Part shown: positions 26,985-30,107 of the stretch, in pieces | How positions within the stretch are numbered: the first letter of the stretch is position 1 | Layout of the letters: each line of letters opens with the position of its first letter | From: Thermococcaceae archaeon | Lineage (GTDB): Archaea; Methanobacteriota_B; Thermococci; Thermococcales; Thermococcaceae | NCBI GenBank assembly: GCA_030156945.1 | Contig: JASGLT010000021.1 | Location: 1-32,343 of the forward strand | DNA: 32,343 nt | Direction: 5' to 3' | Made by a program: the position numbers and the translations under genes | The notes under the pieces: model-generated | Database searches by the model: none | What the model was told of the DNA's origin: nothing | The model's input: only the letters and a program-made list of their open reading frames with translations

Positions 26985-27347
26985 ATGCCCCGCGGAATGG
27001 GTAGAGGACCGGGAAGAAGGAGAAAGATGAGGTTCATCGGATTCATTCCTCAGGTTAGGCACTTCTATCCCGCCGGCCCTCCATTCGGCCCACCCAAACC
27101 TCCGATATTCATGAGCTACGAAGAATTCGAAGCACTCAGGCTTGTGGACTACGAGGGAATGACTCAGGAAGAGGCGGGAATAAAAATGGGGGTGTCGAGA
27201 GGAACGGTTTGGAGGGCCCTGAGCTCGGCCCGCAGAAAAGTTGCACAGATGCTTGTAGAGGGTCGAGAGCTCATTATACTCCCGCAGGGGAACGAGGTAC
27301 CAAAAATTTCAAATTTGAAGACAACGAGTGAGTCTCCCGATGAATGA
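26985..27347 (+). CDS. DUF134 family helix-turn-helix protein
   Basis: The protein has 120 aa and begins with a basic PRGMGRGPGRRRKMRFI segment, then the family-typical FYPAGPPFGPPKPPIFMSYEEFEALRLVDYEGMTQEEAGIKMGVSRGTVWRALSSARRKVA, a sigma-70 region 4-like helix-turn-helix. DUF134 proteins are small putative DNA-binding regulators, often near redox or metal genes. The tail after LIILPQG is short and variable. It is divergent from ACS alpha and could regulate it, but nothing in the sequence proves this. Confidence 0.88.
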   Translation: MPRGMGRGPGRRRKMRFIGFIPQVRHFYPAGPPFGPPKPPIFMSYEEFEALRLVDYEGMTQEEAGIKMGVSRGTVWRALSSARRKVAQMLVEGRELIILPQGNEVPKISNLKTTSESPDE

Positions 27348-27428
27348 AGGTCGTTCAAAAATCCACACCCAACCGATACAAAAATTCTCATCCTTCAATC
27401 AAAATGGTCATGAATCTGATGGGAAAGA

Positions 27429-27467
27429 GTTATATTGGATAACGTTCAAAAGGGGATTAGAACGTTA
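27429..27467 (+). promoter_or_regulatory. Promoter and palindromic operator of the regulator-DUF211 cassette
   Basis: A TATA-like GTTATATTGG at about 27429-27438 is followed by a perfect inverted repeat: TAACGTTC at 27440-27447 and GAACGTTA at 27460-27467, with a 12-nt spacer. The centres are 20 bp apart, two helical turns, so a dimer would contact one face of the DNA. The expected start site falls inside the repeat. A half-like CGTTCAAAA occurs again at 27352-27360. Autoregulation by the downstream winged-helix protein is the simplest reading. Confidence 0.6.
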
Positions 27468-27483
27468 AAATTGGGTGACGCCA

Positions 27484-28059
27484 ATGCCGAAGGTGAAAGT
27501 GATAACCGACCCAGAGGTCATAAAACTGATGCTTGAGGACACGAGGAGGAAAATCCTCCAGCTCCTGAGAAACAAGGAGATGACAATATCACAGCTCAGT
27601 GAGATCCTCGGAAAAACGCCCCAGACGATCTACCACCACATCGAGAAGCTTAAAGAGGCCGGGCTTGTTGAGGTCAGGAGAACCGAGATGAAGGGGAACC
27701 TGGTTGAGAAATACTACGGGAGAACCGCCGATGCTTTCTACATAAACCTCTACCTGGGCGACGAGGAGCTTCGGTATTTCGCACGTTCCAGGCTCAAGAC
27801 AAAGCTCGACGTCTTCAAGGCCCTAGGGTACACCTTTGACGATGAGGAGCTCCTTGATGTTATGGACAAGCTTCTCCAGAAGGAGCACGAGTTTAAGACG
27901 AAGATTTCCAAGGACATAGAGAAGAAAGAAAGCAGCCTTAAGGAGTTCTCCAACGAGGACATAATCCACGCCATAGAGTGGCTGACAATGGCCGAAATGG
28001 GGAGGGACGAAGAGGCATTGGAATTGCTCAAAAAGCTCGGGAAAATACTTAAAAAATGA
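27484..28059 (+). CDS. ArsR-like winged-helix transcriptional regulator
   Basis: The N-terminal half is a winged-helix DNA-binding domain: VITDPEVIKLMLEDTRRKILQLL, then MTISQLSEILGKTPQTIYHHIEKLKEAGLVEV with the recognition helix TPQTIYHHIEKL, and a wing ending VEKYYGRTADAF. The C-terminal half (about residues 85-191) is helical and charged, probably for dimerisation or ligand sensing. It is a paralogue of the protein at 28391-28948. I chose ATG 27484 because GGTGA lies 6 nt upstream. DUF211 follows after 24 nt. No metal-binding cysteines are present, unlike in the paralogue. Confidence 0.85.
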   Translation: MPKVKVITDPEVIKLMLEDTRRKILQLLRNKEMTISQLSEILGKTPQTIYHHIEKLKEAGLVEVRRTEMKGNLVEKYYGRTADAFYINLYLGDEELRYFARSRLKTKLDVFKALGYTFDDEELLDVMDKLLQKEHEFKTKISKDIEKKESSLKEFSNEDIIHAIEWLTMAEMGRDEEALELLKKLGKILKK

Positions 28060-28083
28060 TTCCCAAAGGAGAAGCGATGAAAG

Positions 28084-28389
28084 ATGGCAAGGGGAATAAG
28101 ACTGTTAGTTCTGGACGTTCTTAAGCCGCACCAGCCGATGGTAACGGAACTTGCACTGGGGCTTAGCGAGCTCGAGGGGGTTGATGGAGTCAACATAACG
28201 CTCGTTGAAATAGACAAGGAGACCGAAAACGTCAAAATCACCGTTGTTGGCGACGATCTTGATTACGAGGAAATAGTGAAGACCATAGAAGAGTTCGGTG
28301 GTGTCGTGCACAGCATAGACATGGTTGCCGCCGGAAGGAAGATCGTGGAGGAGGGCGAAACCCCACAGGACAAGCTGGAGGAATACTGA
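28084..28389 (+). CDS. DUF211 family protein
   Basis: This small protein of 101 aa has the typical DUF211 start RGIRLLVLDVLKPHQPMVTELALGLSELEGVDGVNITLVEIDKET. The predicted order beta-alpha-beta-beta-alpha-beta fits a ferredoxin-like fold, as reported for relatives. The biochemical role of the family is not known; binding of metal ions or a small ligand has been suggested. It lies between two related winged-helix regulators, 24 nt after the first and 1 nt before the GTG of the second, so the three form an operon. ATG 28084 has AAAGGAG upstream at a rather long distance. Confidence 0.88.
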   Translation: MARGIRLLVLDVLKPHQPMVTELALGLSELEGVDGVNITLVEIDKETENVKITVVGDDLDYEEIVKTIEEFGGVVHSIDMVAAGRKIVEEGETPQDKLEEY

Positions 28390-28390
28390 A

Positions 28391-28948
28391 GTGAAAGAGG
28401 TCATCATAATCACCGACCCCGAAACGGTTAAGGTGCTCTCGGAAGAGACCCGGTTTAGGATACTCCAGCTTCTCAGGCTTCGGCCAATGACCATCAAAGA
28501 GCTTGCGGATGCCATAGGTAAGGACAGGAGCACCATAAGCAGGCACATAAAAGCCCTCGAAAATGCCGGTCTCGTCGAGGAGTTTGAGGCTTTTGGTAAC
28601 GAAAAAGTCTACTCGCGGAGTGCGAGGCTATTTCTCATAAAACCAGACCCTGACGAAAGCGTAGAACGCTTCAGACAGGCCTATCTACAGTTAGAGGCTG
28701 AAAAAATTGTCAATATCCTTGAGAGGGCAGGGTTCACAATAAAGGACAGGAGAAGTCTGAAAAAGATAATAAAAGAGGTCTTTGACCAAGTTGAAATAAA
28801 ATCCCAGCCGATTTTGAAGAGGATATCCCTTGCCGACGTGGAACTGACCGAGGTAGAGCTCTTTCACCTCCTCAACATTCTCGTCTTCCTCCAGAGTTGT
28901 GAGCTTTGTGAGCATGCAAAGAAAGTCAGAGAGCTGATAATATTTTGA
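28391..28948 (+). CDS. ArsR-like winged-helix regulator with C-terminal CxxCxH motif
   Basis: This 185-aa paralogue of the gene at 27484 starts with the same pattern (KEVIIITDPETVKVLSEETRFRILQLL), followed by MTIKELADAIGKDRSTISRHIKALENAGLVEE with recognition helix DRSTISRHIKAL. The C-terminal half is helical and ends with CELCEHAKKVRELIIF; the CxxCxH cluster is a possible metal or redox sensor that the paralogue lacks. GTG 28391 is preceded by GGAGG about 10 nt upstream, inside the end of the DUF211 gene; a longer frame from 28325 would overlap DUF211 and lacks similarity. It is probably the third gene of the cassette. Confidence 0.83.
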   Translation: MKEVIIITDPETVKVLSEETRFRILQLLRLRPMTIKELADAIGKDRSTISRHIKALENAGLVEEFEAFGNEKVYSRSARLFLIKPDPDESVERFRQAYLQLEAEKIVNILERAGFTIKDRRSLKKIIKEVFDQVEIKSQPILKRISLADVELTEVELFHLLNILVFLQSCELCEHAKKVRELIIF

Positions 28949-29093
28949 CCCTCAATAGCTCTCAAGAAGAGCTTACAATGAAATTAACGCTTTCAAAAGT
29001 CCCATGCTCTGTTCAATTCTTGACAAATTCAAGACTAAAAGTGGGAATGTCGTTAACCAAAAATTTACAAAAACTCCCAAATTACAAGATTCC

Positions 29094-30107
29094 ATGCTGG
29101 AGGAGTTACTTGAGCTTTCAGAAAAAGCTCTTGAAAGCCCTCTAAGTCAAAAAGACGTTAATAAAATTTTCAAAACTCCCGACAAGTATTTAATCGAGCT
29201 TGTTCTCTCAGCAAACAGAATAAAAAGAGCATTCAGTGGGAATAGAATTTCAACATGTTCAATAATAAGTGCAAAAACAGGGATTTGCAGCGAAGACTGC
29301 GCGTTTTGTGCCCAATCAAAGATCAGCAAAACCAACATTAATAGACACAGGCTTCTAGAAACAGAAAAGATTCTGGATGCTGCCATAGAAGCCGAGAAGA
29401 ACGGAGCAGATAGGTTTTCAATAGTCACGAGCGGGTGGGGTTACAGAGGGGATGAAAAGGAGTTTCTAAAAATCTTAGAAGCAATCCAAGTACTCAAACA
29501 GTGCACCAACATGAAGATAGATGTTTCTTTAGGAATGCTAGGTAAAAAGGCCATAGAAATGCTGTCAAAGGTTGAAGTAGACAGAGTTCATCACAATATA
29601 GAGACTTCAAAACGCTTTTTTACCAAAGTCTGTACCACTCATACCTTCCAAGATAGGGTAAAAACAGTGAAAAGGCTAAAAGAAGCTGGACTTGAAGTAT
29701 GCTCTGGCTTCATAATTGGGATGGGGGAGAAAATTGAAGACAGAATAAGCGCAGCAGAGACTTTAAGATCTCTCCAGGTGGATTCCGTACCAATAAACAT
29801 GTTAATTCCTATTAAAGGGACTCCCCTTGGAACAAAAAGCCCCATGAAAGCAATGGATGCCCTAAAAAGCATTGCAGCACTAAGATTCCTACTGCCAAAA
29901 ACAGAGTTAAGGCTGTGTGGTGGAAGAGTGCAGGTTCTCGGAGACCTATGGATCCTGGCGTTGTTCATTGTTGACGGAGTTCTCATTGGAAGAACTGCCC
30001 TCACAACAACCATAAGAGATCCAGAGCTTGACATAAAGGCTATGAAGGATCTAGGTTTAATCTTGAAAAATTCAGAAGATTACCAAAACCATAGAACCCA
30101 CACATGA
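29094..30107 (+). CDS. bioB: Biotin synthase (BioB), variant with non-classical cysteine set
   Basis: Radical SAM enzyme that inserts sulfur into dethiobiotin. The 337-aa protein has the cluster motif CSEDCAFC (Cys65, 69, 72), HHNIETS near 166-172, GLEVCSGFIIGMGE and SVPINMLIPIKGTPL, all typical of BioB. The classical [2Fe-2S] ligands of E. coli BioB are only partly kept: the positions of Cys97 and Cys128 are Ser109 and Asp143, while Cys203 matches Cys188 and the Arg ligand remains in GGR. Extra Cys55, Cys180 (KVCTTHTF) and Cys275 are present, as in BioB of strict anaerobes. I chose ATG 29094; an upstream ATG at 29004 would add 30 unlike residues. The gene is markedly AT-rich, has no clear ribosome site, and no other biotin gene is nearby, suggesting transfer. 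Confidence 0.82.
   Translation: MLEELLELSEKALESPLSQKDVNKIFKTPDKYLIELVLSANRIKRAFSGNRISTCSIISAKTGICSEDCAFCAQSKISKTNINRHRLLETEKILDAAIEAEKNGADRFSIVTSGWGYRGDEKEFLKILEAIQVLKQCTNMKIDVSLGMLGKKAIEMLSKVEVDRVHHNIETSKRFFTKVCTTHTFQDRVKTVKRLKEAGLEVCSGFIIGMGEKIEDRISAAETLRSLQVDSVPINMLIPIKGTPLGTKSPMKAMDALKSIAALRFLLPKTELRLCGGRVQVLGDLWILALFIVDGVLIGRTALTTTIRDPELDIKAMKDLGLILKNSEDYQNHRTHT

Follow-up and report, generated by a model that had tools for sequence, protein, structure and literature searches.

A DUF211 gene string with two ArsR-type regulators and a conserved tandem operator in Thermococcales, and DUF211 genes adjoining VIT1-type genes outside the order

In the SmtB–SmtA system, an ArsR-family repressor is paired with a metallothionein. 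Among archaea, PH1932 of P. horikoshii is an ArsR-type winged-helix protein whose structure was reportedly presented by Itou et al. in 2008, with its role left unassigned. VIT1/CCC1 proteins are Fe2+/Mn2+ transporters; in the plant VIT1 structure the metal-binding domain lies between TM2 and TM3, and MbfA-type ferritin-VIT fusions have an added cytosolic iron domain. A cytosolic metal-binding domain is characteristic of VIT1-type transporters (PMC8247066), and the MbfA iron exporter class is limited to alpha-proteobacteria according to a 2020 review (PMC7762939). Structures of the DUF211 family (COG1888, arCOG04140) comprise MTH889 (2RAQ), an A. fulgidus protein (3BPD) and SSO6206 (2X3D), all of which share family, fold and length with the protein described below. 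The same is true of the product of TK1882, the DUF211 gene of T. kodakarensis; by its numbering, TK1881 is one of the two genes adjoining it. In an EMSA screen TK1881 shifted a trp-promoter probe, without specificity for that probe (PMC6737238), which is weak evidence that the TK1881 protein binds DNA. For 3BPD, from A. fulgidus, a toroidal homoheptamer is reported (PMC9953691). The family is listed with the archaeal proteins that are widely conserved but have no assigned function (252 genomes; PMC6393860), and within Thermococcales few such proteins vary less; a single table line enters COG1888 (arCOG04140) as linked to ArsR transcriptional regulators, with a variability of 0.2 (PMC9425974, Table 3, 2022). 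A preliminary description of the DNA analysed here, which knew of no described function for the arrangement, is thus right in that none is assigned in the literature searched, but the linkage to ArsR regulators was already in print (PMC9425974).

The window (the whole analysed stretch of 32,343 nucleotides) comes from a Thermococcus-like genome (G000, contig C18). Three genes, all on the + strand, form one gene string: (i) ArsR-type regulator 1 (27484–28059, 191 aa), with an ATG start at 27484 and the N-terminus MPKVKVITDPE, (ii) a DUF211 / COG1888 / arCOG04140 gene (28084–28389, 101 aa), with an ATG start at 28084, and (iii) ArsR-type regulator 2 (28391–28948, 185 aa), with a GTG start at 28391 and the N-terminus (V/M)KEVIIITDPE. 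What the preliminary description had said about these genes was borne out: all three lie where it had placed them, the regulators that it took for paralogues with ITDPE starts share 37% identity over 167 aa (5e-23), the near-zero spacing that it saw between DUF211 and regulator 2 amounts to a single base between stop codon and GTG, and, in the window's proteins, CxxCxH is confined to regulator 2 of the pair. A gene for a DUF134 (PRK04217) DNA-binding protein (window 26985–27347) is located just upstream in the same orientation, some 90 bp ahead of the promoter of the string, and bioB (TIGR00433, 345 bits; window 29004–30107) comes after it. The bioB stretch has approximately 39–42% GC, compared with about 50–57% in most of the surrounding sequence, which suggests that this gene may have been acquired horizontally.

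Both regulators matched the ArsR/SmtB winged-helix profile above its curated cut-off (HTH_5, PF01022; 4.5e-16 for regulator 1 and 2.9e-16 for regulator 2). Regulator 1 is a full-length orthologue of PH1932 (323 bits; 4.2e-96 to PDB 1uly/2cwe), and regulator 2 has the same fold: 1uly was matched at 1.2e-16 by sequence and, by Foldseek with the AF2 model (pLDDT 89.8), at 1.5e-12, followed by SmtB/CzrA at around 1e-4. With the NCBIfam HTH_metalloreg model the scores were 49.4 bits for regulator 1 and 55.3 bits for regulator 2, the cut-off being 55. No metal ligand, the known ArsR/SmtB metal-site residues (alpha3N ELCVCDL-type, alpha5 D/H sets) included, was evidently conserved in either regulator, and no Cys was found in their recognition region. 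Whereas PH1932 is known as a structure without an assigned role, the present locus adds a putative operon, an operator and a link to DUF211.

The DUF211 protein matched PF02680 with 129.4 bits (6e-38), against a gathering score of 22.1, and the related structures 2raq (1.4e-35), 3bpd (6.9e-31) and 2x3d (1.7e-17). Its AF2 model (pLDDT 90.9) has a ferredoxin-like fold, for which Foldseek returned 3bpd (2.4e-12) and weak resemblance to the ferredoxin folds of the NikR C-terminal domain, HMA and PII; the likeness to HMA (E 0.022) failed the cut-off and was not used. Across 44 diverse DUF211 sequences, D11, E42, D44, G56, S77 and D79 are invariant and K14, P15, P18 and H76 nearly so, with a bias at positions 9–16, as many of these sequences were obtained by peptide patterns. 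In outline, the locus resembles SmtB–SmtA in that an ArsR-fold protein, a probable repressor as argued below, stands beside a small candidate metal-binding protein. Unlike in that system, however, there are two paralogues in one gene string, the operator lies in a single shared promoter, the SmtB metal-site residues are not evident, and the small protein is predicted to form a ferredoxin-fold ring.

Analysis of the region preceding regulator 1 revealed a BRE/TATA-like core promoter (GGGAAAGAG TTATATT, 27421–27436, + strand; TATA at 27430–27436), recognised from its sequence and from the conserved columns of 51 anchored upstream regions. Just past the TATA box are two direct copies of RAACGTTNAAA on the + strand, box 1 (TAACGTTCAAA, 27440–27450) and box 2 (GAACGTTAAAA, 27460–27470), the second exactly 20 bp after the first; both boxes, with this fixed spacing, were present in all 51 distinct upstream regions examined. 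Mean column information was 1.61 bits for box 1, 1.71 for box 2 and 1.19 for the BRE/TATA element, against 0.14 farther upstream. The strict paired pattern occurred in 49 of the 51 regions, with 0 expected in shuffles.

A sequence-only profile of the paired boxes (R1) was run on 94 whole genomes. It matched in all 74 good genomes, with one strong match in each (5.8e-8 in the window genome), always before this gene string. Since R1 was built from these same sites, their recovery is given by construction, and what the scan adds is that no other strong matches appeared. In several Pyrococcus genomes the operator is partial or degenerate (E 0.003–0.02), and the claim of uniqueness does not extend to them. 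Weak second matches that recurred in genus g4 were rejected as operators, being placed inside a sugar-nucleotidyltransferase coding sequence and not in promoters; one further weak match in this genus lies beside repeats resembling a CRISPR array, again not in a promoter. At the level of sequence, and with the weak Pyrococcus matches borne in mind, the operator is placed as for a single-target autorepressor, confined to the promoter of the regulators themselves. The two boxes overlap the region in which transcription is expected to start, a repressor-like geometry. It is thus probable that the three genes are controlled by autorepression through one or both regulators, and that little else is. 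We propose that they are co-transcribed as one autoregulated operon, and that one or both PH1932-type paralogues bind the two boxes, two helical turns apart in the interval between TATA box and start codon, thereby repressing the operon that encodes them. The self-contained unit envisaged in the preliminary description is supported by the one conserved tandem operator per genome, before the triplet.

We investigated how widely the arrangement is conserved by searching for regulator 2 in 94 Thermococcales genomes and for DUF211 across 115 genomes from the phylum. Regulator 2 directly follows DUF211, on the same strand and within 120 bp, in 86 of the 88 DUF211-bearing Thermococcales genomes compared; in one of the two exceptions (G057) the genes are on different contigs owing to a contig break, and in the other (G033) regulator 2 has been relocated. 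Regulator 1 precedes DUF211 throughout the fetched Thermococcales loci that hold the latter. The same gene order thus recurs throughout Thermococcales, far from what chance would give; DUF211 identity between the sampled genera is 89–93%. Neither regulator was found at 64 DUF211 loci outside the order. The preliminary description had made its proposal depend on DUF211 and the regulators being linked in most genomes; the neighbourhood survey supports this for all Thermococcales genera, but elsewhere the genes are unlinked. In G033 (L177, G033:C1:1603000-1620000), regulator 2 has moved by about 10 kb and to the opposite strand, which was seen in no other Thermococcales genome on a single contig; R1 found no operator upstream of the relocated gene, and the regulator 1 promoter there keeps its operator. 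Another locus (L178, G015:C1:388000-392000) carries a second, decayed pair of DUF211 and regulator 2 without regulator 1, and R1 found nothing in front of it.

The fixed three-gene arrangement, with its near-zero spacing across the whole order, would also be expected of a sensor complex in which the DUF211 ring is the ligand-sensing subunit, the loaded or empty ring binding the ArsR pair and altering its DNA binding, with the operon as the main target. This reading is close to the one in the preliminary description. The regulators have no evident ligand sites of their own and DUF211 weakly resembles small ligand-binding ferredoxin folds (NikR C-terminal, HMA, PII), which is consistent with such a role. 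However, most archaea have DUF211 without these regulators, so that serving them cannot be what it is primarily for, and a dedicated sensor, there being one operator per genome, would have nothing but its own operon to control. We therefore consider a sensor complex improbable. An autorepressed operon with DUF211 as its output is the reading that we prefer.

Clustering of the neighbours at the 64 non-Thermococcales DUF211 loci revealed that many are housekeeping genes (SRP19, S8e, FtsJ and a divergent PHP phosphatase). In 11 of these loci, from Bathyarchaeota, halophilic archaea, Actinomycetota and Anaerolineae, DUF211 is directly adjoined by a gene for a VIT1-family membrane protein of 190–207 aa (PF01988, TIGR00267). 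Co-occurrence was then assessed in evenly drawn genomes. Among 200 Thermoproteota genomes, 76 have a VIT gene, 102 have DUF211 over the cut-off and 71 have both; that is, 71 of 76 VIT-bearing genomes carry DUF211 (Fisher p 5e-23, a value that ignores relatedness). The two genes are less than 300 bp apart in 47 genomes; 44 of these pairs share a strand and divide evenly, 22 and 22, between the two orders. In the 400 Chloroflexota genomes DUF211 was present in just four, each time immediately followed by a VIT-like gene (L197, L206, L207, L208). Most of the DUF211-linked VITs tested exceeded the PF01988 cut-off of 28.1 bits, but those of L207 (25.8) and L208 (13.5) scored below it. A VIT neighbour was seen at 11 of 29 DUF211 loci in Actinomycetota, where the others are mostly behind rluD/lspA-like genes (named from sequence), and at one of the best 29 loci in Halobacteriota. 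In Methanosarcinales, Archaeoglobi and many Actinomycetota no VIT gene was found beside DUF211, which has only housekeeping neighbours there. SRP19, S8e, FtsJ, PHP and RluD were considered as functional links to DUF211 and were judged to be lineage housekeeping context. That the two genes adjoin each other again and again, and in either order, points to proteins that work together; where they do so, a functional link is, on this genomic evidence, likely. It is worth mentioning that in one Thermoproteota locus a PH1932-like ArsR gene (L271:577-1194; 66 bits with the combined regulator profile) lies about 300 bp from a VIT gene of the DUF211-associated type, hinting that such regulators meet this type of transporter outside Thermococcales too.

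The DUF211-linked VITs differ from VIT1/CCC1 and MbfA in having a short metal-binding-domain loop and a separate soluble neighbour. Aligned to a Thermococcus rubrerythrin-VIT domain, they miss approximately 37 residues of this loop, around which their PF01988 matches are split, and much of the cytosolic three-helix metal-binding domain expected between TM2 and TM3 is missing from them. In Thermococcales, a PF01988 search gave no VIT of the DUF211-linked (TIGR00267) type. The tested Thermococcus genomes with a PF01988 match have one VIT each, and the single such protein examined over its whole length proved to be a rubrerythrin-VIT fusion. Such rubrerythrin-VIT1 fusions, with an MbfA-like domain make-up, were observed in Thermococcales at L180–L191 (e.g. 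L184:1057-2151). The gene was rejected as a member of the regulon, the nearby half-sites being weak and inconsistent between genomes.

In the explanation that we favour, the output of the autorepressed operon would be DUF211, assembled into a ring of ferredoxin folds; its invariant acidic cluster (D11, E42, D44 and D79) would bind a divalent cation, with Fe2+ or Mn2+ the likeliest. In other archaea and in bacteria DUF211 would work with a VIT1/CCC1-type transporter lacking much of the cytosolic metal-binding domain, while in Thermococcales, where no such transporter stands beside it, DUF211 on its own would be subject to dose control. To this explanation as a whole, autorepression and a metal-related DUF211 together, we assign a probability of roughly 0.5. 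Several observations weigh against it: neither regulator has an evidently conserved metal ligand, VITs of the DUF211-linked type did not turn up in Thermococcales, many DUF211 loci elsewhere have housekeeping neighbours and no VIT, the co-occurrence counts ignore relatedness, and several Pyrococcus operators are degenerate. The odds that DUF211 binds a divalent metal appear about even; the preliminary description had suggested an effector, perhaps a metal, and the VIT linkage, the short VIT loop and the invariant D/E cluster lend this indirect support. That the regulators sense the same metal seems rather doubtful. In this order the tightly autoregulated operon yields, apart from its regulators, nothing but DUF211, and a homeostatic buffer fits this better than a global regulator. 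A more specific proposal, offered tentatively and at less than even odds, is that a widespread class of short-domain VIT1-type transporters has its cytosolic metal-binding module detached and acting in trans, in the form of DUF211, and that Thermococcales have made of DUF211 a stand-alone, ArsR-autoregulated metal buffer. If true, this would provide a function for an archaeal protein family that ranks with the most widespread of those still uncharacterised, and the VIT linkage suggests that VIT-type transporters can be of split design, the soluble metal-binding part coming from a gene of its own. Together with the mapped operator, this linkage makes DUF211 function precisely and cheaply testable in Thermococcus kodakarensis, for which genetics are in place. 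The parts belong to known families, but the operator, its near-uniqueness, the link between DUF211 and VIT1 and the short loop were not mentioned in the literature searched and look new.

The output might alternatively be unrelated to metals, DUF211 binding another small ligand and the VIT context reflecting housekeeping control in common or a transporter for some other substrate. The ligands of ferredoxin folds are diverse, metal-bound DUF211 is not documented in the literature searched, and the neighbours elsewhere include SRP19, S8e, PHP phosphatase and RluD. However, the presence of VIT genes in both orders within the same draw argues for a specific functional link, DUF211 is rare in Chloroflexota and yet has a VIT-like neighbour each time, and several of its invariant positions are acidic, all of which makes a non-metal output unlikely.

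The metal-related reading does not involve the C-terminus of regulator 2, SCELCEHAKKVRELIIF, whose C170, C173 and H175 are situated at the start of the last helix (residues 169–182 of the AF2 model). Among 58 distinct orthologue sequences, CxxCxH occurs in 5, CxxC without the His in 38 (usually as CELCEKAKK) and neither in 15. The Cys pair is lost from L040 (a Pyrococcus-type genome), from most genus g4 sequences (L042–L047), and from L012 and L026, which are otherwise close to regulator 2 of the window. With CxxC lost in 15 orthologues and the His found in only 5, CxxCxH was rejected as a conserved metal site and, judging from this comparison, is a local variant. The role that the preliminary description gave to this tail did not hold, as the Cys pair is missing in the Pyrococcus-type genome, most of g4 and some Thermococcus; the conservation of the cysteines on which that role hinged is partial. 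The system persists without the pair, which cannot therefore carry its core function, although a lineage-specific redox or metal role is possible. A SurR-like switch, in which a CxxC disulfide of regulator 2 would derepress the operon under oxidative or sulfur conditions, accords with the CxxC that opens the last helix of most Thermococcus orthologues but is very improbable, since operon and operator persist where the motif is gone and regulator 1 has no such motif. Regulator 2 is tandemly duplicated at three loci (L060, L067, L072), the extra copy being without CxxC and about 41–42% identical to regulator 2 of the window.
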